A DNA stretch of 64,000 bases from Kyrpidia spormannii (GTDB lineage Bacteria; Bacillota; Bacilli; Kyrpidiales; Kyrpidiaceae). The notes beneath the pieces are model-generated. The model worked only from the letters and a program-made list of their open reading frames with translations. It was not told the origin of the DNA and ran no database searches. Location: the NCBI RefSeq assembly GCF_002804065.1, contig NZ_CP024955.1, forward strand, positions 496,001 to 560,000, given 5' to 3'. Shown piece by piece: positions 25,325 to 63,923 of this stretch (position 1 is the first letter of the stretch; each line of letters starts with the position of its first letter). The position numbers and the translations under genes were made by a program.

Positions 25325-25673
25325 GGGGGCGTATTGGTTTCGACGGGGACTGTTCGAACATCGGTGGCGGGTCGTGGGGCTGCGACCACGTACCAACGCG
25401 GGCGTACAAGAAACGCGAACAAAGAAGAACTCGCTCTGGCTGCTTAATGCCGGACGTTCACCGAGCGGGCGCCCGCACCGCTTGGATGGGCGCCAACCTC
25501 GCGGGCTGGTCGAAGGGCCTTTGCCTGTGGGCCTTCGATGAGATAATAGCAGGCTAGCCCGAAAGAGAGCGTGTCGTTTCGCGCTCTGACGGCGAACCTC
25601 AGTAAAACGACTACACCCGTAGAAGCCGGTGTAGCGAGGTTCTCGGACAGGGGTTCGACTCCCCTCGCCTCCA
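25325..25673 (+). ncRNA. ssrA: Transfer-messenger RNA (tmRNA)
   Basis: The 5' GGGGGCG (25325-25331) pairs with CGCCTCC (25666-25672) to form the tRNA-like acceptor stem. The 5' end continues as ATTGGTTTCGACGGGGA, a hallmark of tmRNA, and the T-arm GGTTCGACTCC is near the 3' end. The encoded proteolysis tag, ending at the TAA at 25445, reads ANKEELALAA if the resume codon is the GCG at 25415. The final CCA is not encoded. It acts with SmpB to free stalled ribosomes and mark the product for ClpXP. Confidence 0.95.
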
Positions 25674-25676
25674 AGA

Positions 25677-50642: not shown

Positions 50643-50676
50643 CCAGAGGGGTATTTTGCCCTCAGGCAACCTCTGG
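50643..50676 (-). ncRNA. Hairpin at the tnpB 3' end, possible guide-RNA scaffold
   Basis: Nested stems CCAGAGG/CCTCTGG (50643-50649 with 50670-50676) and TTGCC/GGCAA (50656-50660 with 50665-50669) overlap the tnpB stop. TnpB guide RNAs (omega or re-RNA) are made from this place and extend past the element's end. It could also be a simple terminator. Confidence 0.4.
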
Positions 50677-52158
50677 CTTTGGGTCATCCCCTTTGCGGGG
50701 ATACACGAATGTCTTCGTCCATTTCCTGTACAGGTTCATCATCCCCACAAAATCCGCGTCCGCGCTGTACCGGTGGTTCGGGTTCTTGCATGTGAACCGT
50801 GAGCCGTTGCGTTCCCCGAGCACCTTGCAGTGCGGACAGGTCTGGGAAGTGTAGGCCGGGTTGCGCTCGACCGTCAGAATTCCCTCACGAAACGCCAAGT
50901 CCCGGACCCATTTCATGATCTGTCCGCGCAACCAATACGCCCGTTTGTGGTTCTTCCGACCGCTTTTGCTCATCCTCTCCTTGGGCGGCCGGTACCGGCG
51001 CAGGTGCTCGAACACGATCACCCTTGCGCCGTGCTCCATCGCGAATTGGACAATGGTTACGGCCGTCTGCTTGGCCGCGTTCTCGTCCAGGTTCCGGATC
51101 TTGTTCCACAAGTTCGCGTTGTCCTGGACGCCCGGCTGGAGCCGTCCGCTTTGCTCCCGCTTGCGGTGGATTGCCGTCAACAGCCGGTGCCGGCGATGGT
51201 TCAGGGCTCTGCCGTCCACGAACCTCGTGGCCGCCAGTTTTCCCTCCACAAACGCTCCCATCACCGCCAGCCTGCCCACGCCCAGGTCCACCGCAACCAC
51301 CGGCATCTGTGGGTCTGCCCGGCGCTGTTCCTCTGCCTTCCGGGGTTTGTCTACGGATTTCTCCATCGGGATGTGCAGCGCATACCGCACCCCGCCCGGA
51401 TACCGTTTATCCCGCTTCCCGTGCACCGTCAGGGATTTCGCCACCCATGTCCGGCCCCCTTTTTCTTCGCCGGAACCGGCCTGGCCCGTCTTTGAACGTT
51501 TCCTTTCCCGAGCGATGCGTTCTTTCTCCAGGGCGGACCCGGCGAGAAGCGATTCGGCCTGGGCATGAACCACCACCGGCAGCGACACCTTTTCCCACTT
51601 CTGCCCCGTGTGCAGTTTCAGGCTAATGAACGTATGCCGCTTTTTCTTCTGCGGGTTTAGGTCATACGCGGGGTGCTCGACCATCCCCGCATAAAACGTC
51701 ACCGGTTCGTTCGGTGCGCCGGGTCGTGGTTCCCGCCCGCGCTGGTCCGGTGCTGTTTCCTCCCAAGTTTTCAGGTGGCTCCACCAGGACCGCACCTTGC
51801 CAATCGCCTGGTTGATCGCCGCCCGCCGCAACTCCGTCGGCATTCCTCTGGCCGCCGGAACGTGTTCGTCGAGCGGCCACCCCGGGTTCGGGTGGGCTTT
51901 GGTCGCCAGGGTGTGAAACTCCGCAAAGGTCAGCAGTTCCTGGTTGGTGCGCGTTCGTTCTTTGACCGTCCCGTCCTTTTTTCGAACCTGGACCGGCTCG
52001 TCCAACACCTTCAGGTGCGCCGCGAAAAAGTCCATGTAAAAAGCGACCACTTGGTTATAGATATCCTTCGTCCGCTCCAGCGCCTCCGTCTTGCACCGAT
52101 GGACCTCCTTGTGAATCCCGATGCGGATCGCCCTGATGACAGTCGCCAGCGTCCTCAC
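50662..52158 (-). CDS. tnpB: TnpB RNA-guided nuclease of IS607 type
   Basis: TnpB, 498 aa. The RuvC-like core has VVAVDLGVGRLAVMG at about residue 288, VIVFEHLRRYRP at about 382, and the third acidic site in YSADADFVGMMNL at about 463. A zinc ribbon lies between them with CPHCKVLGERNGSRFTC. TnpB proteins cut DNA guided by an RNA from the element's end and help it persist. The GTG at 52158 follows GGGAG and lies inside the tnpA end. It looks complete and possibly active. Confidence 0.93.
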   Translation of the reverse strand: MRTLATVIRAIRIGIHKEVHRCKTEALERTKDIYNQVVAFYMDFFAAHLKVLDEPVQVRKKDGTVKERTRTNQELLTFAEFHTLATKAHPNPGWPLDEHVPAARGMPTELRRAAINQAIGKVRSWWSHLKTWEETAPDQRGREPRPGAPNEPVTFYAGMVEHPAYDLNPQKKKRHTFISLKLHTGQKWEKVSLPVVVHAQAESLLAGSALEKERIARERKRSKTGQAGSGEEKGGRTWVAKSLTVHGKRDKRYPGGVRYALHIPMEKSVDKPRKAEEQRRADPQMPVVAVDLGVGRLAVMGAFVEGKLAATRFVDGRALNHRRHRLLTAIHRKREQSGRLQPGVQDNANLWNKIRNLDENAAKQTAVTIVQFAMEHGARVIVFEHLRRYRPPKERMSKSGRKNHKRAYWLRGQIMKWVRDLAFREGILTVERNPAYTSQTCPHCKVLGERNGSRFTCKNPNHRYSADADFVGMMNLYRKWTKTFVYPRKGDDPKPEVA

Positions 52159-52777
52159 CTCCCATCTCGTTCATGGCTTTTTGGACCTTTTTCCGGAACT
52201 CCTGCGACCGCTTGCCGTACATCCGGGCTGAAAACACGGTGATGATCGTCAACAGATCCTCCACCAGCTCCTGCTGGGATGTCTTGGGCTCGGTCTTGTG
52301 AGTGGACTCGACCGTCACCCCGTGGCTCTCGAAAAACCGTTCCAGATACCGGTATCCGAACCGCGCCAGCCTGTCCGGGTATTCAATCAGTACCCGGTCG
52401 ATCTCCCCGTCTTCCGCAAGTTTGAGCAGGGCCGCCAGTTGTTTCCGGTTCTCGCCCACTCCCGACGCCTGTTCGGAAAACACCCGGACCACATCGTACC
52501 CGTGCTCTTCCGCATACCGCTCCAGCCGTTCCCGCTGCCGCTGGAGATTGCCGTCCGCCTTTTGCTTGGCCGAAGACACCCGGGCGTAGATCGCCGTCCG
52601 GTCCCCGGCCCGTTTCCCCAAAAGTCGCCTCACCTCCTCGACGTCGAACAACCTGTGGTTCCCCGGCGAACGAATGGAATGAATCTTTCCATCCCTGTCC
52701 CAGCGTCGGATCGTCTGCACGGTCAGTCCCAGCATTTTTGCCACTTTGCCGATGGGGAGATACTGTGTGTCTTTCAT
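52055..52777 (-). CDS. tnpA: IS607-family serine recombinase TnpA
   Basis: A 240-aa protein with an N-terminal MerR-like helix-turn-helix (LPIGKVAKMLGLTVQTIRRW) then a serine resolvase catalytic domain. The nucleophile is in IYARVSSAKQ at about residues 63-72, and IDRVLIEYPDRLARFGYRYL and ARMYGKRSQEFRKK follow. It catalyses insertion and excision of the element. Its 3' end overlaps tnpB. AT-rich DNA at 52778-52800 precedes the ATG and probably holds the promoter. Confidence 0.93.
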   Translation of the reverse strand: MKDTQYLPIGKVAKMLGLTVQTIRRWDRDGKIHSIRSPGNHRLFDVEEVRRLLGKRAGDRTAIYARVSSAKQKADGNLQRQRERLERYAEEHGYDVVRVFSEQASGVGENRKQLAALLKLAEDGEIDRVLIEYPDRLARFGYRYLERFFESHGVTVESTHKTEPKTSQQELVEDLLTIITVFSARMYGKRSQEFRKKVQKAMNEMGGEDAGDCHQGDPHRDSQGGPSVQDGGAGADEGYL

Positions 52778-53065: not shown

Positions 53066-53106
53066 CATAAGAGTCATGATTTACAATGAGGGAGGTAAGA
53101 CGTAAA

Positions 53107-53424
53107 ATGAAAGAGAAAGATAAATCTATACAGAAGGAGAGGGAGAAAAAAGTGTTGGCTACTAGGACAATTTCCAGCAAAGGGCAAGTTGTTATTCCGG
53201 CAGAAGTTCGACGACTGTTAAACATTGAGCCTGGGGATCAGGTGATTTTCTCTTTGAATGATTTTGGGGAGATTGTAATGAGAGCAAAAAAGCGGGAAAA
53301 ACTATCAGATTTGATTGGAATACTTCCTGCCAAGAAACGCGTTGATGGGGATTTTGAGGTTATTCGCAAAAAGGCCCGAAGGATCATGGCTGTCCGCAAG
53401 CATGCGTTAAGGGAGGATGAATAA
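53107..53424 (+). CDS. AbrB/SpoVT-type antitoxin (VapB-like)
   Basis: About 105 aa. A Lys/Glu-rich N-terminus is followed by a swapped-hairpin AbrB domain (TRTISSKGQVVIPAEVRRLL and EPGDQVIFSLNDFGEIV). The C-terminal tail (residues 70-105) likely wraps the toxin. ATG 53107 has GGAGGT ten bases upstream; an ATG at 53086 would include the ribosome site in the gene. It is followed immediately by a PIN toxin. The region is much more AT-rich than the neighbours, suggesting transfer. Confidence 0.85.
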   Translation: MKEKDKSIQKEREKKVLATRTISSKGQVVIPAEVRRLLNIEPGDQVIFSLNDFGEIVMRAKKREKLSDLIGILPAKKRVDGDFEVIRKKARRIMAVRKHALREDE

Positions 53425-53877
53425 TTGGCCGAGTGTTTTTGGATTGATACAAATTTGTTATTACGCCTTATAACGGAAGATCCAGAAGGAATGACCAAAG
53501 AAACATTGGAGCTGGTTTCGTTCGTTGATCGAGGCGCGATCAAACTAAGGGCTTCGTCTATGGTTGTTGCAGAATGTGTTTGGGTCTTGGAATCGGTCTA
53601 CGAACATAAACCTGGGGAAATCGCCAAAGCATTGCGCCGATACTTGACGAGTAATGTGATTGAGTTTGACGAAAAAGAAGTGGTAGAGGGCGCGTTAGAT
53701 GATTATGAACAGCATAATGTAGATTTTATCGATGCATACGTGGCGCGTAAGGCAAAATTCAGCACAACCCCTCGAATCATCACGTGGGATCGGGATTTCC
53801 GGCGCCTCGACATCGAATGGTTTAAACCGCCGGAAATTGTGAAAAGAGTTAAAGAAGCACAAGGTCAACGGGAATGA
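53425..53877 (+). CDS. PIN-domain toxin (VapC-like RNase)
   Basis: A 150-aa PIN protein. The first acidic residue is in FWIDTNLLLRLI, another is in VVAECVWVLESVYEH, and the C-terminal set is in VDFIDAYVARKA and IITWDRDFRRLD. These make the four-acid metal site of VapC-type RNases. It starts with TTG directly after the antitoxin stop, with GGGAGG eight bases upstream. It is probably inactive in complex with the antitoxin and toxic when released. Confidence 0.86.
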   Translation: MAECFWIDTNLLLRLITEDPEGMTKETLELVSFVDRGAIKLRASSMVVAECVWVLESVYEHKPGEIAKALRRYLTSNVIEFDEKEVVEGALDDYEQHNVDFIDAYVARKAKFSTTPRIITWDRDFRRLDIEWFKPPEIVKRVKEAQGQRE

Positions 53878-55389: not shown

Positions 55390-56199
55390 CTATTTTAACC
55401 CCGACTGCATAAAACTGGAGATGATCTGGCGCTGGGCGACAAGATAGAGAAGAAGCGCTGGCAGGGTGGTCAGTGTCGCGGCCGCCATGAGCGGCCCCCA
55501 ATTGTTGCCACCTTCCATGCTCACGAACCCTTGAAGGCCGACGGTCAGGGTTTTCATCGGCGGGTCGGTCAAAACCACCAGCGGCCAGAGGTACTCGTTC
55601 CAGGTGTTCACAAATACCAAGATCACCAGTGCCACAATGGGCGATCGGATGACCGGCACCACCACTTGCCACAGCGTCCGCCAGGTCCCCGCCCCGTCCA
55701 CCCGGGCGGCTTCGAGCAGTTCCCGGGGAAAACCGAGCAGGTGCTGGCGAAGGAAAAACACCCCGAAAGCGTTGGCCAACTGAGGCGCCGCTGCCCCGAG
55801 GTACGTGTTGAGCCAGCCCAAGGAGGAGATCAACAAATAATTCGGAAGCAGGGTCACCTGGATCGGGATCATCATCGTCCCGATCACCAAATAAAACAGC
55901 AAATCCCTCCCCGGGAACCGAAACAGGCCGAACACATACGCCGCCAGGATGGCCGTGACCACCTGCCCAACCGTCACCAGCACCGCCACGATCAGGGTAT
56001 TTTTAAAATAAACCCCGAGCGGCGCCCCGGCGAAGGCCTCCACGTAATTCATCCATGTCGCCGGATGGGGGAGCCACCCGCCCCCGAATACTTGTTCCGG
56101 GGTTTTCAGGGACGTCGAAATCATCCACAGCAGTGGGAACAACAGCAGCAACGCGGACACCGCCGCCATCCCGTGCATCCACCAGGTCGACCGGCTCAT
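55390..56199 (-). CDS. ABC transporter permease, UgpE/MalG type
   Basis: A 269-aa permease with six helices. The cytoplasmic EAA loop is EAARVDGAGTWRTLWQVVVP. TSLKTPEQVFG follows the first helix, as in MalG-like proteins. It pairs with the permease upstream, whose stop it overlaps (ATGA), and with the binding protein at 58 kb. No ATPase gene is in the operon, so a shared MsmX-like ATPase is likely. GlpP in the same operon points to glycerol-3-phosphate or glycerophosphodiesters as substrate. Confidence 0.88.
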   Translation of the reverse strand: MSRSTWWMHGMAAVSALLLLFPLLWMISTSLKTPEQVFGGGWLPHPATWMNYVEAFAGAPLGVYFKNTLIVAVLVTVGQVVTAILAAYVFGLFRFPGRDLLFYLVIGTMMIPIQVTLLPNYLLISSLGWLNTYLGAAAPQLANAFGVFFLRQHLLGFPRELLEAARVDGAGTWRTLWQVVVPVIRSPIVALVILVFVNTWNEYLWPLVVLTDPPMKTLTVGLQGFVSMEGGNNWGPLMAAATLTTLPALLLYLVAQRQIISSFMQSGLK

Positions 56200-57137
56200 T
56201 CCTCCCTCAGCCTCCTGTCGATGACCCGGATTTGCCAGACCGCCAGCACCAAGAACGCGACGAACACCACTACGCTGGTGGCCGAAGCCATTCCGGTCCG
56301 GAAAAATTGAAAGCCTTGCTCCCAGATGAGGTACACGAGGTTGGTGCTGGCCTGGTTGGGCCCGCCCTGGGTCAGCATTTGAATGGGGACAAAAACATCC
56401 TGCACCGCTTCCAGGGCCGAGGTCAAAGTGACGAAGACGGTGGTGGGCATGAGCAGGGGCCAGGTGACCCGCCAGAAAATCTGCCAGCGGCCGGCACCAT
56501 CCACCCGGGCCGCCTCCACGTACTCCTGGGGGATATTTACAAGTCCTGCCAAATAGAGGATGAAGCTCAGGCCAAAGCCTTTCCAGGCTCCAACCGCCGA
56601 CAGGGCGACCACCACCCAGTGGGGATCCGACAACCACATGGGTCCCTGGATGCCGAAGACCTGCAGTAGCCCGTTCAAAACTCCGCCGATGGGGTTGAGG
56701 ATCCACAACCACAACAGCGAGGCCACCGCCGCCGACACCACCGCCGGCACAAACAGCACACCCCGGTAAACCCGGTGCCAGGGCCCGGTGATTTCCGCCA
56801 CGGCCCAGGCGGCAATCAGGGGCAGTGCCCCTTTGCCGAGGAGAATCCAAAACATGTATTGCAGGGTGTTCCATACGGCCAGCCGAAAATCCCGGCTTCC
56901 GAAGAGTTCCGCGTAATTGCGGCCGCCGATGTAGGTCTTGGCCGGACTGACCCGATTCCATTCGTACAAGGACAGAATCGCCGTCTGAACCAGGGGCCAG
57001 TATACGAATACGCCCAGAATCGCCAGCACCGGCAGTAAATAGGCGTAAGGCCCGAGTCCGGCGAGGGCGCGCCGACTCGCCCTCGCCTCCTTCCCGGACT
57101 CGGATGCGACGGGGGTATCCGCCAACACCCGCTCCAT
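56196..57137 (-). CDS. ABC transporter permease, UgpA/MalF type
   Basis: A 313-aa permease with about six helices after a cytoplasmic N-terminus. The EAA loop is EAARVDGAGRWQIFWRVTWP, and TQGGPNQASTNLVYLIW near the C-terminus is typical of the UgpA/MalF group. It forms the channel with the downstream permease. It starts 1 bp after the TIM-barrel gene ends, inside a tightly packed operon. Confidence 0.88.
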   Translation of the reverse strand: MERVLADTPVASESGKEARASRRALAGLGPYAYLLPVLAILGVFVYWPLVQTAILSLYEWNRVSPAKTYIGGRNYAELFGSRDFRLAVWNTLQYMFWILLGKGALPLIAAWAVAEITGPWHRVYRGVLFVPAVVSAAVASLLWLWILNPIGGVLNGLLQVFGIQGPMWLSDPHWVVVALSAVGAWKGFGLSFILYLAGLVNIPQEYVEAARVDGAGRWQIFWRVTWPLLMPTTVFVTLTSALEAVQDVFVPIQMLTQGGPNQASTNLVYLIWEQGFQFFRTGMASATSVVVFVAFLVLAVWQIRVIDRRLREE

Positions 57138-57138
57138 G

Positions 57139-57999
57139 TCAGATCCCCCCGGCCTTCGCCCGCTCCCTACCCGTGAGCCGAGCGACGTGGGAGCGGATCA
57201 CCTCGAGGTCCGTGTCCTCTCGATATTCGATCACCTGATGAACGGGACTGGGCAGGGCCCGGATCGCCCGCTCCACCTCCGCCCAGGGCAGGTGCCCGTG
57301 ACCGAGGGGCAGGTGCTCGTCCGCCGATCCGCCGTTGTCGTGGATGTGCACCGCCCGGACCCGGTCCCCCAGGGCGGCGAACAAACCGGGCAGGTCCCAC
57401 CCGTTGGCGAAGGCGTGGCCGATGTCGACGATGGCCCCGCAATAAGGGGAATAAAATTCTTCGATCAACGCCGCGAACTCGTTCTGGTCGAACAAAGCGG
57501 CGGGCCCCACCCCGGCGTTCTCCACCACCATGAGCACGCCTAGGCGCTCGGCCATTTTGCACAGCCGGGCCAAGTGCTCCCGGGCAAAAGACTGGGCCAG
57601 ATCCCGGTCGTAGGTGCGGGAGCCGTACCCGGGATGAATCACCACGTGGCCAGCGCCCAGTTCCGCCGCCGTGACCAGGGCGCCCACGTACTGGCGCTCG
57701 GCCAGGAGCCGTTGTTCCGGATAAAGGGGGTTCGCCAAATTGATCTCGAACACCGGCGCGTGGAGGGTGATGGGCAGATCTTCTCCGAGCAGGCTCTTAC
57801 GAATGTGTTGAATCGCCCCGCCGGGGTGCTGCCACACCTCGCCGTCCATGACGAGCTCCACCCCAGGCCACTCCCACTCCCGGGCGGTCTGGAGAATCTC
57901 GGTTAGCCCCTGGCCCAGCAAGGGCAGGGCGGACACGAACCACTGTCCCCGCTCGTCGGTTTTCCCGTTTTCTTCTCGTCGTTCCTGCATCTTATTCAC
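57139..57999 (-). CDS. Xylose-isomerase-like TIM-barrel protein (AP2 family)
   Basis: A 286-aa member of the AP-endonuclease-2/sugar phosphate isomerase-epimerase superfamily. Likely metal ligands are visible in HVVIHPGYGS, MVVENAG, AIVDIGHAFANG, VHIHDNGGSADEHLPLGHG and HQVIEYRE. Members act on sugars, sugar phosphates or phosphodiesters. In this GlpP-controlled operon it lies where a GlpQ-type phosphodiesterase might be expected, so a role in glycerophosphodiester breakdown is possible but not shown. GTG 57999 follows GAGGGGGG; ATG 57990 is an alternative. Confidence 0.8.
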   Translation of the reverse strand: MNKMQERREENGKTDERGQWFVSALPLLGQGLTEILQTAREWEWPGVELVMDGEVWQHPGGAIQHIRKSLLGEDLPITLHAPVFEINLANPLYPEQRLLAERQYVGALVTAAELGAGHVVIHPGYGSRTYDRDLAQSFAREHLARLCKMAERLGVLMVVENAGVGPAALFDQNEFAALIEEFYSPYCGAIVDIGHAFANGWDLPGLFAALGDRVRAVHIHDNGGSADEHLPLGHGHLPWAEVERAIRALPSPVHQVIEYREDTDLEVIRSHVARLTGRERAKAGGI

Positions 58000-58012
58000 C
58001 TCTGAACCCCCC

Positions 58013-59290
58013 TCACGGCTTTGGCAGAAGCGGAGTGATTCGATCTTTCGCCGACTGCAACGCTGACTGGGCATCATTTTTGCCGGCCAACACACTCATC
58101 CGGGCGTCCAAAAGGATTTTTTCTCCCTGCAGGCTGTTCGGACCAGGGATATTTTTCCACGGCACCGCCTCTTTGAGCTGTTCCACCGCCGGTTTCATCA
58201 GTGGCTGGGCTTGAAGCAGGGCCTGGGTGACGTCCTGGCCCCCGGCCGCCAACCGGGAGGGCAGGTAGCCCGTGCCCAGGGACCACGTTTTCAGGTTGTC
58301 GGGAGACTCGAGGAATTGGATAAACTCCATGGCCGCCTTTTGCTGGGCGGGATCTTTGGCGAACACCATGAGCACGTTACCGCCGGCCGGCACTTTCCGG
58401 GGTTTGTCCCCGAAGGTCGGGTAAAGGGCCGTGCGCAGATCGAAGGTCGCCTGCTTCTTCAGGCTGGCCAACTCCGCCACCGTGGCGATGTACATGGCCA
58501 ATTTTCCCGACAGAAACGCCTGCTGGGCTTCTTGATAGGTCACATTGGGCATGATCTTGTCTTTATTGACCATGTCGCCCCACATCTGAATCGCCTGAAC
58601 CGCCGGGGGATCGGTGAGTCCCAGGGTGCCGTCCGGATTCACGATGTGACCGCCGTTGGATTCGATCAGCGCTTGGGTCGACCAGTTATCCTCATTGCGG
58701 ATAAATGCCCCCCAGGCTCCGGTCTTGTCTTTGATCGTCTTCCCCATGGTCCGGACTTCATCCCAGGTCTTCGGGGGATTGGCGGGGTCGAGTCCGGCCT
58801 TCTTGAACAGGTCGGCGTTATAATAAATCACCGGATTGCTGATCGAGTAGGGAATGCCCTCGACTTTGCCTTTGACCTTGCCCAAATCGAGAATATTGCT
58901 CGGAAAATCGCTCAAAAACGTCGGATCGTCTTTGAACAGGTCCGCGATGGCGACGTGGGGAAAATTCCCCGCCGCATAGTCCAAATGGCTGTAGCTGATC
59001 TGGGACACCGCCGGGGGTTTGCCCGCCGCAATGGCCGATTGGAGGTTTTGCATGAGCCCGGCGTACATGTCGGGTTGAAAACGGTCCACCACCTGGACGT
59101 CCTTGTGGGTCTGGTTGAACTTCTGGACCAATTCCCGCACCGCCGGCCCGCCAAAGCTATCGGAATTCACGTGGTAATATTCGATGGTCACGGGTTGACT
59201 GCCGCCCGCCGGAGTTGATGTGGTACCTCCACAGCCCGCCAAGACCGTGGCCACCGCCAAAACCGCCGCCGCGATCCCCATCCGCTTCAT
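58013..59290 (-). CDS. Extracellular solute-binding lipoprotein, UgpB type
   Basis: A 425-aa family 1 solute-binding protein. A signal peptide with lipobox VLAGC is followed by TIEYYHVNSDSFGGPAVREL, and GIPYSISNPVIYYNADLFKK, AAGGQDVTQALLQAQ and other UgpB/MalE-like stretches come later. It probably captures glycerol-3-phosphate or a related ester outside the cell. The ATG at 59290 has AAGGAGCGG upstream and overlaps the glpP stop. Confidence 0.9.
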   Translation of the reverse strand: MKRMGIAAAVLAVATVLAGCGGTTSTPAGGSQPVTIEYYHVNSDSFGGPAVRELVQKFNQTHKDVQVVDRFQPDMYAGLMQNLQSAIAAGKPPAVSQISYSHLDYAAGNFPHVAIADLFKDDPTFLSDFPSNILDLGKVKGKVEGIPYSISNPVIYYNADLFKKAGLDPANPPKTWDEVRTMGKTIKDKTGAWGAFIRNEDNWSTQALIESNGGHIVNPDGTLGLTDPPAVQAIQMWGDMVNKDKIMPNVTYQEAQQAFLSGKLAMYIATVAELASLKKQATFDLRTALYPTFGDKPRKVPAGGNVLMVFAKDPAQQKAAMEFIQFLESPDNLKTWSLGTGYLPSRLAAGGQDVTQALLQAQPLMKPAVEQLKEAVPWKNIPGPNSLQGEKILLDARMSVLAGKNDAQSALQSAKDRITPLLPKP

Positions 59291-59904
59291 TCCGGATCCG
59301 CTCCTTTTTGTTGGATTGTCCGTACCTGGTCTTCCGTCCACCGCCACAACTCCGGCCGCCCCAGGGAAACCGCACGGGCTCCCGCCGCCAGAGCCTGTCC
59401 CACCTCATCCGGTGCCTGGATCAGCCCTCCGGCGATCACCGGAATGGACACCCGATCCACCACTTCTCGGATGACCCGGGGCATCAGGCCGGGCATGATC
59501 TCCACGGCGTCCGGGCGATTTTCCGCCAGGGTGCGCAGCCCCAACTCCAGGGCCGGCCGATCGATGAGAAACAGCCGCTGCACCGCCGCGAGACCCAGGC
59601 TCTTCGCCGCCCGAACCACCTGACTTTTTGTCGAGACGATCCCTGCCGGGCGAAGCGTTTCCGCCACGTATCGCAGTGCCGCTTTGTCCGGCGACAGGCC
59701 CTTGGCCATGTCCATGTGCAGAAAAACCCGTTTCCCGTGCCGGCGCAGCTGTTCCAAATACCCCGGCAGGGTGCACACATCCCCGATCAGCAGGAACACG
59801 TCTTCCACCGGCGTGGCCAAAGCCGTCTCAATCAAGGACTCTTCGTGTACCGAGAGAATGATCGAACCCCGGAACCGAAGCCGTTCCTCCGACTGCTTGT
59901 GCAT
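59287..59904 (-). CDS. glpP: Glycerol-3-phosphate responsive antiterminator GlpP
   Basis: A 205-aa GlpP family protein with a TIM-barrel-like fold: VFLHMDMAKGLSPDK, RPAGIVSTKSQVVRAAKSLG, AVQRLFLIDRPALE, EIMPGLMPRVIREV and PVIAGGLIQAPDEVGQAL. In Bacillus GlpP binds glycerol-3-phosphate and the leader RNA of glp genes, preventing termination. The ATG at 59904 follows GGGAGAGGGGG. A strong terminator lies in the leader upstream, so GlpP likely controls its own operon and the transporter. It is first in the operon. Confidence 0.93.
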   Translation of the reverse strand: MHKQSEERLRFRGSIILSVHEESLIETALATPVEDVFLLIGDVCTLPGYLEQLRRHGKRVFLHMDMAKGLSPDKAALRYVAETLRPAGIVSTKSQVVRAAKSLGLAAVQRLFLIDRPALELGLRTLAENRPDAVEIMPGLMPRVIREVVDRVSIPVIAGGLIQAPDEVGQALAAGARAVSLGRPELWRWTEDQVRTIQQKGADPE

Positions 59905-59945
59905 GATCGCCCCCTCTCCCGGCATCCTCCCGCCCCCCTCGAAAC

Positions 59946-59992
59946 AAAAATGGGCACACGACAATCCCTTCCGCGGGTGGTTGTCTTGTGCC
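59946..59992 (-). terminator. Leader terminator, likely GlpP target
   Basis: On the minus strand a 12-bp stem with one mismatch (59992-59981 with 59964-59953) is followed by a run of five T. It lies between the promoter side and glpP, the position of GlpP-controlled attenuators. Confidence 0.8.
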
Positions 59993-60140
59993 AGGCTTTC
60001 TCCTCGACTCCGCCTGCAAGCCGTCCTCTTGTCCCATGGTCTTTTCATTTGCTATCATGGCACGGGAATATGAATCCCCCGTGACTCGCAGGTAACGTTT
60101 CGGTCGATTTTGCGTAAAATCTTCTCAAGACCTACCAGCC

Positions 60141-60168
60141 TTGACATCGTGCTGGCTGGGTATACACT
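60141..60168 (+). promoter_or_regulatory. cadC-cadA promoter
   Basis: A perfect TTGACA at 60141-60146 with TACACT at 60163-60168 (16-bp spacer). The AT-rich dyad-like stretch at about 60170-60200 before cadC may be the CadC operator. Confidence 0.6.
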
Positions 60169-60217
60169 AACAATTAAACGTATGCTTGAATATGATATCG
60201 GGACGGAGGGGAGCGCG

Positions 60218-60655
60218 GTGGTAGACCGAAGGAATGGGTCAAAGGGTGTCGCGTTGCAGGACGATCTTGCGTCGTGGCGCCCGGCGGGAGGCCAGGGGAG
60301 TTGCGAGGTGTTCGGCTATGACCCGGAGAAGGTGCAGCGGCGCCGGCGAGAGCTGCACGTGACCGAAGGCATGGCCGATCTGTTCAAAGTGTTGGCGGAT
60401 GATACCCGCTTAAAACTCGTCTATGCCCTCTGTCGGGAAGATGAGTTGTGCGTGTGCGACGTGGCCACCATCCTGGGGATCACCAACGCCAATGCGTCCC
60501 ATCACCTGCGGTTGCTCTCACATATGGGCCTTGCCGCCAGTCGTCGGGAGGGCAAAATGGTCTTTTACCGCCTGCAAAGTCCCCATGTCCGCCACCTCCT
60601 TCAAGAAGTACTGCGGCTATATGGAAGGGGGGAGTCGGGTGGCTGTGCCGAATGA
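60218..60655 (+). CDS. cadC: CadC-type ArsR/SmtB metal-sensing repressor
   Basis: A 145-aa ArsR-family repressor. The DNA-binding helix carries the metal motif ELCVCDVATILGITNANASHH, which spans positions about 73-93. An N-terminal Cys is present (GSCEVFGYD), the alpha-3N ligand region of CadC. The second N-terminal Cys of Staphylococcus CadC (in TCEIFCYD) is Gly here. It likely releases its operator on binding cadmium, lead or zinc. GTG 60218 has GGAGGGG six bases upstream. It overlaps the cadA start. Confidence 0.88.
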   Translation: MVDRRNGSKGVALQDDLASWRPAGGQGSCEVFGYDPEKVQRRRRELHVTEGMADLFKVLADDTRLKLVYALCREDELCVCDVATILGITNANASHHLRLLSHMGLAASRREGKMVFYRLQSPHVRHLLQEVLRLYGRGESGGCAE

Positions 60656-62575
60656 CCGCCTGCAGGATCGAGCCCCCGGGGTCGCGGAGAAACCGGGCCA
60701 ATCCGGGAATAGCCCGGATCCGGTCCGGCCCCAGGAACATGTGTATCGGTTGGCGAATGTGAGCTGCGCCGATTGTGCCGCGAAATTTGAAGACAAAGTC
60801 AAACGAGCACCCGGGGTGCTGGATGCCCGGGTGCTCTTCGGATCCTCCCAATTGATCGTGGTCGGGCAACCACTGAGTGGAGTGAAGCCTTGGAGAACCA
60901 CGCCATGGACCGGGCCCGCCGCTCGATCCGCTCCCTGGCGGAGATGGCTCCCACCCGGGCGATGGTTCGCCGGGAGGGACGGGAAATGATTTTGCCCGTC
61001 GAGGCCATCCGGATCGGTGACGTGATGATCGTGCGGCCAGGGGAAAAAATTGCCCTGGACGGAAGGGTGATCCGGGGGCGCAGCGAGGTGAACGAGGCGG
61101 CCATTACCGGCGAGTCGCTCCCCTTGGCCAAAGAAGCTGGCGATCAGGTGTTTGCCGGGTCACTGAACCATTCGGGCGCCATCGAGGTCGAAGTGACCAC
61201 CCGGGCTGAGGACAGCACCCTGGCGAGGGTCATTGCCCTGGTGGAAAAAGCCGAGGCCGAGCGGGCCCCGACCCAGGAGTTTGTCAACCGTTTCGCCAGA
61301 GTTTACACACCGGCGGTTACGGTTCTGGCGGTGGGCATGGCCCTCATTCCGCCTCTCGTCTGGGGTGCGGCTTGGCAGCCGTCTATCTATGAAGCGTTGG
61401 CCCTGCTCATGGTGGCCTGTCCCTGTGCCCTGGTGGTTTCGACCCCGCTGGCGGTGGTGACGGCGATGGGCGTGGCGGCCCGAAACGGGGTGCTGATCAA
61501 GGGTGGCATTCATTTGGAAAATATCGGCCGTCTCCGGGCGATGGCCTTTGACAAGACGGGTACATTGACCCTGGGCGAGCCGGTGGTCACGGACGTGGTC
61601 GGACTCCAAAATATTACTGAAGAAGACATCCTCCGGGTGGCGGCGGGGATTGAGCGCTATTCGGAGCATCCGTTGGCCGGGGCGATCCTGCGCGCAGCCG
61701 CAGACCGCGGCCTCACTCCCGGGGAAGTGGAGGATTTTGAGAGCTTTCCCGGACGGGGGGCGCGAGGGACGGTGGGTGGCGCGGAGTATTGGATCGGTAG
61801 TCCCCCTTGGTTCAAGGAGCGCGGGGTGGACCTGGCGGCCGTGGACCATCGAATTCGGGGATTTCAGGAGGAGGGGAAAACGCTGGTGCTTCTCGGGCGA
61901 AGGGACACCGTGACCGCCTTGATTGCCCTGGCCGACCGGGTGCGGCCTTCGGCCCGGGAGGTGGTCGCGAACCTCAAAATGGCCGGGATCGGGCCCACGG
62001 TTCTGTTAACCGGCGACAATCAGGCGACTGCCCGGGCGATCGGCCGGACCGTGGGTGTGGACGAGGTGCGAGCAGGGTTGCTTCCCGAGGACAAGATCCG
62101 AGCCGTTTCCGAACTAAGGCAATGGTACGGTCGGGTGGGGATGGTGGGCGACGGGGTGAATGACGCCCCGGCCCTGGCTGCTGCCACCACCGGAATCGCC
62201 ATGGGGACTTCGGGGACCGATCTCGCACTGGAGGCCGCAGATGTCGCTTTGATGAACGACGATCTGTCGAAAGTTCCCTTCGCCGTCCACTTGGGTCGAG
62301 TCACCTTGCGGATCATTCAACAAAATATTTTCATCGCCCTTTTCATGAAGACTGCGGCTTTACTCCTCGCATTCCCCGGCTGGCTCACCTTGTGGCTCGC
62401 CATCGTCGGCGACATGGGCGCCACCCTTTTGGTTACCGCCAACTCCCTGCGCCTGTTGCGGGTTCGACCCTCAAGATGCAGGAGTTTTATCACGATTAGA
62501 CGGCGCAAACATATCAGTGCGAATCGTGTATCGCAGGGGCTCGCAACTGCTCACAAAAACATCAATAAAGATTGA
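60639..62575 (+). pseudogene. cadA: CadA-type heavy-metal P-ATPase with internal deletion
   Basis: One frame (from GTG 60639) gives an N-terminal heavy-metal domain with VSCADCAAKFEDKVKRAPG. A second frame, from about 60870, begins at EWSEALENHAMDRARRSIRS, after the point where membrane helices 1-4 should lie. It continues with TGES, CPCAL, the phosphorylation motif DKTGTLTL, the HP motif and GDGVNDAPAL. About 190 codons are missing and the frames differ. The C-terminus runs on for about 35 unusual residues after LRLLRVR. It is probably inactive as a pump. Confidence 0.85.
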
Positions 62576-62938: not shown

Positions 62939-63313
62939 GTGAATCCGTATGATTACGCACATGGGCTTGCGAGGGCGCTTCGGGAGAGTGAATGGTATCG
63001 GAACCTCAAAGAGGCCAAGGAACGATTGGAGGCCGATCCGGAAGCTTTGCGGATGGCCCATGATATCCGGCGCCGCACGTTAGAACTTCAACTCAAGTCG
63101 ATGGGCGGGCAAACGGTAACCACCGAAGAGCAGGAGCAGTTGCGCAAGCTCCAGGAGGTGGCTATGTTGCACTCCGTCGTTCGGGCGTATTTAGAGGCGG
63201 AGTCGAGATTATCTGTAGTCATGGACGATATTCAGCGGATTCTCGCTGAGGCGATTGCCCCTGTGGTTGACTTGCCCGGTAAAAGGGAGACAGAGACATC
63301 GGAGCATCGGTGA
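62939..63313 (+). CDS. YlbF/YmcA-family protein
   Basis: A 124-aa helical protein of the YlbF/YmcA (DUF964) family: NPYDYAHGLARALRESEWYR, a middle with RTLELQLKSMGGQ and a C-terminal VVMDDIQRILAEAIAP. In Bacillus YlbF and YmcA act with YaaT to guide RNase Y and affect competence, sporulation and biofilms. GTG 62939 has GGGAGG upstream. A deleted copy of the same gene lies at 29150-29370. Here it is next to IS debris, so it may be an accessory paralogue. Confidence 0.85.
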   Translation: MNPYDYAHGLARALRESEWYRNLKEAKERLEADPEALRMAHDIRRRTLELQLKSMGGQTVTTEEQEQLRKLQEVAMLHSVVRAYLEAESRLSVVMDDIQRILAEAIAPVVDLPGKRETETSEHR

Positions 63314-63422
63314 CGGGTCGCATGGCGGACCGGTGATCTCGGCCGACCGCACGTTTTGTATTTCTCCTTTTCTCTGGCGGTGTCTTCCGTCTCAGACGGT
63401 TGCCCTGCTTCTCTTTATTGTG

Positions 63423-63923
63423 GACGGCAATCTCCAGCGGCAACGGGAACGGCTGGAGCGGTACGCGGAAGAACGCGGGTACGATGTGGTCCGGGTGTTT
63501 TCCGAACAGGCGTCGGGGGTGGGCGAGAACCGGAAACAACTGGCGGCCCTGCTCAAACTCGCCGAAGACGGGGAGATCGACCGGGTACTGATTGAATACC
63601 CGGACAGGCTGGCGCGGTTCGGATACCGGTATCTGGAACGGTTTTTCGAGAGCCACGGGGTGACGGTCGAGTCCACTCACAAGACCGAGCCGAAGACATC
63701 CCAGCAGGAGCTGGTGGAGGATCTGTTGACGATCATCACCGTGTTTTCAGCCCGGATGTACGGCAAGCGGTCGCAGGAGTTCCGGAAAAAGATCGGGCAG
63801 GCCATGAAAGAGATGGGGGGTGAGGGCGCTGGCCGCGGTCATCAAGACGATCCGGATCGGGATTCACAGGGAGGTCCACCGGTGCAAGACGGAGGCGCTG
63901 GAGATGACCAAGGACATCTATAA
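63423..63923 (+). pseudogene. IS607 serine recombinase, 5'-truncated copy
   Basis: From DGNLQRQRERLERYAEERGY onward it is nearly identical to TnpA at 52055-52777 but lacks the N-terminal DNA-binding domain and the catalytic Ser segment IYARVSS. The upstream sequence is unrelated. It cannot be an active recombinase alone. Confidence 0.85.

Follow-up and report, generated by a model that had tools for sequence, protein, structure and literature searches.

A GlpP-led transport operon of Kyrpidia spormannii with a candidate glycerophosphodiesterase of the AP2 TIM-barrel superfamily

We analysed a 64,000-nucleotide stretch (the window) of the single-contig, 3.35-Mb genome of Kyrpidia spormannii. 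On its minus strand, positions 55390-59904 hold five tightly coupled genes encoding the antiterminator GlpP, a UgpB-like solute-binding lipoprotein (SBP), a TIM-barrel protein of the AP2 superfamily (hereafter AP2) and two permeases. With a probability of roughly 0.58, we read these genes as an importer responsive to glycerol-3-phosphate (G3P) and antiterminated by GlpP, in which AP2 would be a cytoplasmic glycerophosphodiesterase unrelated to GlpQ and UgpQ. The nine-position endonuclease IV-type metal site of AP2 and its recurrence with glpP make an unrecognised glycerophosphodiesterase our best hypothesis for this protein.

In the mechanism we propose, a terminator in the leader would stop transcription until G3P-charged GlpP binds a conserved leader element, giving read-through; we infer this step because GlpP works so in Bacillus subtilis. 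The lipoprotein and the two permeases, powered by an ATPase encoded elsewhere, would bring in a small phosphodiester, which AP2 with its multi-metal site would hydrolyse in the cytoplasm to G3P and an alcohol. The released G3P would keep up the GlpP-dependent expression. In relatives, a gene of the HAD-IIA phosphatase, glycerol kinase or G3P dehydrogenase type stands nearby.

Operon, leader and binding protein

The genes glpP and SBP, as well as permA and permE, overlap by 4 nucleotides (nt), and gaps of 22 nt and 1 nt separate AP2 from SBP and permA, respectively, with gene coordinates resting on start codons that we chose (Table 1). A congener, whose AP2 is 94% identical, and a member of another genus of the family (71%) have the same five genes in the same order on the same strand. 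Because it is kept in both, the arrangement is not due to chance, and the operon is real and conserved within its family. A preceding interpretation, the sequence-only reading, had described a coupled, glpP-led operon with a UgpB-like lipoprotein, AP2 and UgpA/UgpE-like permeases; the Pfam and NCBIfam matches, the overlaps and the gaps confirm it. The operon contains no HAD gene and no UgpC, which occurs in relatives, for example L008 and L036. A BLAST search of the window's open reading frames (ORFs) of at least 150 amino acids with two ATP-binding cassette (ABC) ATPases gave no match, so the transporter presumably uses an ATPase encoded elsewhere, the search having covered the window rather than the genome.

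Table 1. Features of the glpP-led operon and its leader in the window (aa, amino acids)
Feature	Coordinates	Strand	Evidence and remarks
glpP, G3P-responsive antiterminator, 205 aa	59287..59904	-	PF04309, 193 bits against a curated cut-off of 27
SBP, UgpB-like solute-binding lipoprotein, 425 aa	58013..59290	-	SBP_bac_8/SBP_bac_1; best NCBIfam model UgpB
AP2, AP2/xylose-isomerase-like TIM barrel, 283 aa	57139..57990	-	PF01261, 111 bits
permA, UgpA-like permease, 313 aa	56196..57137	-	PF00528 (BPD_transp_1); best NCBIfam model UgpA, 125 bits, cut-off 335 missed
permE, UgpE-like permease, 269 aa	55390..56199	-	PF00528 (BPD_transp_1); best NCBIfam model UgpE, 168 bits, cut-off 297 missed
Conserved leader element CAGGC...GCCTG, possible GlpP binding site or antiterminator hairpin	59992..60016	-	last base shared with the terminator stem
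Intrinsic-terminator-like hairpin GGCACA-A-GACAA ... UUGUC-G-UGUGCC, then TTTTTGTTT	59942..59992	-	37 nt before the glpP start codon

GlpP has the solved relatives 3kts and 1vkf and is the single match within its own genome. In its leader, the window, G001 and G003 share an identical 30-nt run from CAGGC into the terminator stem, and the upper stem of the hairpin differs in sequence between G003 and the window with its pairing retained; the comparison comprises three genomes, two of them close. The hairpin folds at -22.8 kcal/mol (62-nt stretch). Two further results advise restraint: a simple terminator scan with a loop limit of 8 did not report the hairpin, and the leader as a whole is no more stable than its shuffles (z -0.83). 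A simple scan of the minus strand in 59700-60400 showed no sigma70-like promoter. BLAST located the leader once per genome, with other matches at E 0.15 or worse, and detected no comparable second copy in the window's own genome (next best E 0.28). At the AP2 loci outside the window's family, no similar leader element was found. A generic GlpP RNA motif, GACGTGGAGAAAGC, guessed from a single match before the L040 HAD gene, occurred near chance (4/41 genomes against 2/41 for the reversed control) and was dropped.

According to an excerpt of PMC9604022, GlpP of B. subtilis acts on terminators in 5' untranslated regions (UTRs). Since the GlpP family is clear and both the conserved element and the terminator-like hairpin lie directly before glpP, control of the operon by GlpP, as the sequence-only reading had proposed, appears supported. 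The compact leader, a terminator with a conserved 30-nt element, offers material for studying how GlpP recognises RNA.

The closest PDB chain to the window SBP is 4aq4, E. coli UgpB (5.5e-32). UgpB is also the only NCBIfam model matched by all ten linked binding proteins, below its cut-off in each; the window SBP scores 136 bits against NF008211 (cut-off 411). The four phosphate contacts of UgpB (Tyr, Ser, Ser, Tyr) map to Y76, S151, T270 and Y342, with Thr for Ser at T270, and these four residues are invariant in the ten proteins. According to the consulted part of a 2025 study, UgpB and the GPC- and U3G-binding proteins strictly conserve the two Tyr and two Ser, unlike glucose-binding proteins (PMC12718374). 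The contact list there follows marine UgpB numbering, which we matched to the E. coli numbers. Because the phosphate-contact positions of UgpB are kept, a phosphate-ester substrate is supported for the predicted importer.

The AP2 protein and its neighbourhoods

By Pfam, AP2 contains AP_endonuc_2 only and lacks the GDPD domain (PF03009). Aligned with solved endonuclease IV, it keeps all nine metal-ligand positions (HHEDHHDHE), whose assignment as ligands we take over from E. coli Nfo. The nine positions are complete in 44 of 55 distinct relatives and controls, including all four endonuclease IV controls, and in 36 of the 39 highest rows, the exceptions being L038 (one change), L042 (a fragment) and the second copy in L098. 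They are not complete in the epimerase-like L107 and L074. The metal positions of epimerases, presumably a subset of the nine, are present in AP2 together with further ligand positions.

After removal of L042 and of the second copy in L098, 53 of the 55 rows went into a phylogenetic tree, for which we assigned the linkage labels and counted L001 as glpP-linked. The window AP2 falls into a 24-row clade (support 99/99) of ten glpP-linked, eight ABC-only and six other rows. Its sister is a CbiR-like clade (81/85), and the endonuclease IV group (100/99) stands apart. On this tree, the label of glpP linkage changes eight times, so the linkage was not handed down without interruption.

Searching the 398 genomes of the class with a profile built from four AP2 proteins gave matches in 19 (E<=1e-25), and 17 of these 19 neighbourhoods were examined (G249 and G275 were left out). 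An ABC-transporter gene adjoins AP2 in 15 of them, in G078 as an ATPase alone at the contig end; L038 and the fragment L042 have no neighbouring ABC gene. The recurrence of a glpP-AP2-permease neighbourhood in other genomes, which the sequence-only reading had suggested looking for, was indeed found: in 10/17, AP2 has a glpP gene no more than 5 kb away on its own strand (window, L009, L007, L008, L030, L032, L033, L034, L039 and L040, the match in L039 being weak at 67 bits). The count is 5/12 when the profile seeds G000, G003 and G038 and the congeners G001 and G139 are set aside. GlpP itself is common, exceeding its cut-off in 291/398 genomes of the class. In Terrisporobacter, the glpP half is on one contig (L043) and the AP2 half on another (L001), and linkage is likely there as well. 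A scan of genome contigs gave one relative, L001, and tblastn against plasmids gave 41 records, all below 60% identity.

Two transporter types occur at the glpP-linked AP2 loci, UgpB-like and SBP_bac_6-like. The binding protein was tested as SBP_bac_6-like in L032, and similar ones are found in L033-L035; L032-L034 retain glpP, AP2 and an HAD-IIA-like gene beside this type. AP2 is located between the ATPase and HAD genes in five operons (L008, L030, L032, L033 and L034), of which the HAD gene was tested with Pfam in L008 only.

As a control, we hand-picked 20 stretches around other glpP genes, mostly from genomes with several glpP, amounting to 21 glpP genes (none in L120); three of the genomes (G159, G204 and G355) also hold AP2 elsewhere. 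No AP2 relative lies within seven ORFs of glpP in any of the 20, glycerol kinase occurs in 12 and a GDPD-like gene is near in three (L124, L126, L131). Five control stretches (L119, L122, L126, L128 and L137) carry an ATPase-permease-HAD-glpP operon without AP2, possibly a G3P uptake system. Judged by these versions, AP2 seems to have been added to a glpP-transporter(-HAD) unit. Four of the five AP2-less operons have an SBP_bac_6-like binding protein.

A second survey, in the phylum of G398, matched 43 of 398 genomes at the same threshold; the 43 include the seed G398 and G592, whose coordinates suggest the same assembly as G038. Among the 18 best-scoring neighbourhoods of the 43, some on short contigs (L096, L097), ABC genes adjoin AP2 in six (L090, L091, L093, L094, L095 and L103) and lie 2 kb off in L097. 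The one neighbourhood with glpP, L095, reads glpP, Na/Pi cotransporter, SBP_bac_6-type binding protein, two permeases, ATPase, AP2, DAO+Fer2_BFD, Pyr_redox_2 and DUF1667. In L099, AP2 is directly followed by an FGGY kinase, then by DAO+Fer2_BFD and later by DUF1667. In four of the 18 (L095, L098, L099 and L102), AP2 has GlpA-like and DUF1667 genes within 7 kb in its own orientation.

Two other observations concern the AP2 relatives. L086-L089 and L092, all in the 24-row clade, are AP2 genes standing alone: no nearby transporter or glp gene was matched. The locus L098:5744-9233 has a BadF/BadG-type ATPase/kinase gene with an AP2 relative on either side, and one of the two copies lacks several metal-ligand positions.

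Weighing the function of AP2

A number of findings weigh against a G3P-yielding diesterase, first among them the family scores. The top NCBIfam model for the window AP2 is fructoselysine 3-epimerase (49.4 bits, cut-off 305), above CbiR (NF041277; 42.5 bits, cut-off 105) and nfo (25.1 bits, cut-off 129.65), with all three cut-offs missed. Over 16 members, CbiR matches 16, fructoselysine 3-epimerase 15 and one endonuclease IV model 12; the distant relative L095 reaches 100.3 bits against CbiR. The fold gives no help either. From one sequence alone, AlphaFold gave a poor model (mean pLDDT 61.5), and with one relative added a modest one (pLDDT 69.7, pTM 0.75). The best VIA match of the two-sequence model is 3wqo (MJ1311; Z 21.9), then many epimerases follow, with endonuclease IV among the rows, and the Foldseek and VIA rows are mostly D-tagatose/D-allulose epimerases and UlaE. 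Fold similarity of the predicted models does not separate epimerases from endonuclease IV and does not decide the function.

The main rival builds on these data: AP2 would be an epimerase or isomerase of a sugar, a polyol or their phosphates, the importer would take up a sugar or polyol phosphate, and GlpP would report a product that yields G3P. Genes for such enzymes often stand beside CUT1 transporters, and the epimerase metal positions are all there. Yet the equivalog cut-off is missed, the binding protein retains its phosphate-contact set, and H90, H132, D237 and H239 (numbered on the window ORF 57139-58029), which presumably have no metal role in mononuclear epimerases, are kept in the same 36 of 39 top rows; we consider this rival unlikely. 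Whether AP2 is a known inositol- or tagatose-type enzyme, the weak point foreseen by the sequence-only reading, thus has a mixed answer, since the fold is equally epimerase-like and the metal site exceeds the epimerase subset.

The ligand is the second difficulty. The glycerol contacts E66 and R374 of UgpB are Tyr and Lys in the window SBP, with Gly284 kept, so apart from its phosphate the ligand may not be the same as plain G3P. The earlier proposal that G3P or its diesters are imported is supported as regards a phosphate ester and is weakened on the glycerol side. AP2 might instead cleave another diester, derived from a cobamide, a nucleotide, teichoic acid or an archaeal lipid (e.g., an ester of glycerol-1-phosphate, G1P), with G3P as one product or an indirect signal. 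The changed contacts, the CbiR matches throughout the 16 members and the sister position of the CbiR-like clade speak for it, and UgpB-like proteins are stated to bind G1P too in the consulted part of PMC12718374. The recurring glpP, HAD-IIA and GlpA/GlpK-type neighbours point to G3P instead, and none of the eight genes tested with Pfam was a cobamide gene, which makes this alternative quite unlikely. The four GlpA-like loci of the second survey all belong to the CbiR-like sister clade and hence bear only indirectly on the window's clade. An adjacent transporter is missing from 12 of the 18 neighbourhoods of that survey, five of them in the 24-row clade.

The third difficulty is the metabolic context. 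One GDPD gene lies elsewhere in the window genome, and in L035 and L040 a GDPD gene shares the operon with AP2, where an extra diesterase is not obviously needed. The sequence-only reading had placed AP2 in the position of GlpQ; the operon does contain AP2 without PF03009, but given these GDPD genes the idea of a replacement stands only in part. GlpK was not detected in the genome (TIGR01311, E<=1e-30), nor was a GlpD-type DAO_C domain, the GlpA-type dehydrogenase not having been searched for; in this organism, G3P may go into lipid synthesis or supply phosphate. The GDPD in L035 and the GlpA-like neighbours in L098 and L102 cut both ways. The transporter could also import G3P itself, with AP2 as a phosphomonoesterase or accessory enzyme in place of the absent HAD phosphatase. 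The AP2-less operons with transporter, HAD and glpP, the two operons that already have GDPD, the lack of a HAD gene in the window operon and the negative searches for GlpK and GlpD would fit. In five operons, however, AP2 and the HAD-IIA-like gene stand side by side, so the two are not simply interchangeable, and we regard this possibility as very unlikely.

For a broader form of the diesterase reading, we see an even chance. The AP2 proteins would then form a new family of glycerophosphodiesterases, placed in the endonuclease IV/CbiR region of the AP2 superfamily. Importers linked to glpP and belonging to two transporter types would have recruited this family, its members could easily be annotated as "sugar phosphate isomerase/epimerase", and GlpP in the window's lineage would be the dedicated, self-controlled sensor of this one operon. 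If true, a non-homologous counterpart of GlpQ/UgpQ would be hidden among generically named sugar isomerases, and the genome-based reading of phospholipid head group and organic phosphate use would change. In the open-access literature, covered by titles and abstract beginnings, we found no description of an AP2/endonuclease IV-type glycerophosphodiesterase, or of GlpP combined with an ABC transporter or with such a leader; no paper on MJ1311 was found in the open-access literature.

Other window features and closest known systems

Next to the operon, 60110-62575 (+) carries an ArsR gene and, after it, a heavy-metal P-type ATPase gene that seems disrupted: compared with the 748-residue ORF of the close relative G001, matches cover only residues 1-86 and 217-746, in two frames. 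Named by eye, a Recombinase/TnpB-like transposon pair occupies 50662-52777 (-), and a second, partial recombinase copy with long common protein stretches lies at 63255-63923 (+); an AbrB-like and PIN-like gene pair resembling VapBC toxin-antitoxin systems is found at 53086-53877 (+). The tmRNA gene is at 25325-25674 (+).

Among known proteins, MJ1311 (3wqo), an uncharacterised D-tagatose 3-epimerase-like protein, is the best match of AP2 in sequence as well as by VIA and keeps the nine positions in an alignment read by eye; unlike AP2, it is archaeal. Endonuclease IV (Nfo) has the fold and the nine metal-ligand positions in common with AP2, whereas AP2 scores under the nfo cut-off, resides in a transport operon and belongs to a separate clade, and the genome has its own Nfo (L106). 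CbiR, described in the consulted part of PMC7733943 as a cobamide-remodelling phosphodiesterase of the AP2 superfamily with conserved His/Asp/Glu, represents the sister clade; the window AP2 differs in its score under the CbiR cut-off and in its glp rather than cobamide neighbourhood.

On the regulatory side, the GlpP regulon of B. subtilis (glpFK, glpD and glpTQ, as listed in the excerpt of PMC9604022) likewise combines GlpP with a terminator in the 5' UTR, whereas in the window glpP itself leads the transport operon and BLAST found no second leader copy in the genome. The E. coli-type ugpBAEC-ugpQ/GlpQ system resembles the window operon in its UgpB-like binding protein, UgpA/UgpE-like permeases and a candidate diesterase gene within the operon. 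The window operon differs from it in having GlpP and a terminator-like leader, in lacking UgpC, and in a candidate diesterase that belongs to the AP2 superfamily instead of GDPD.

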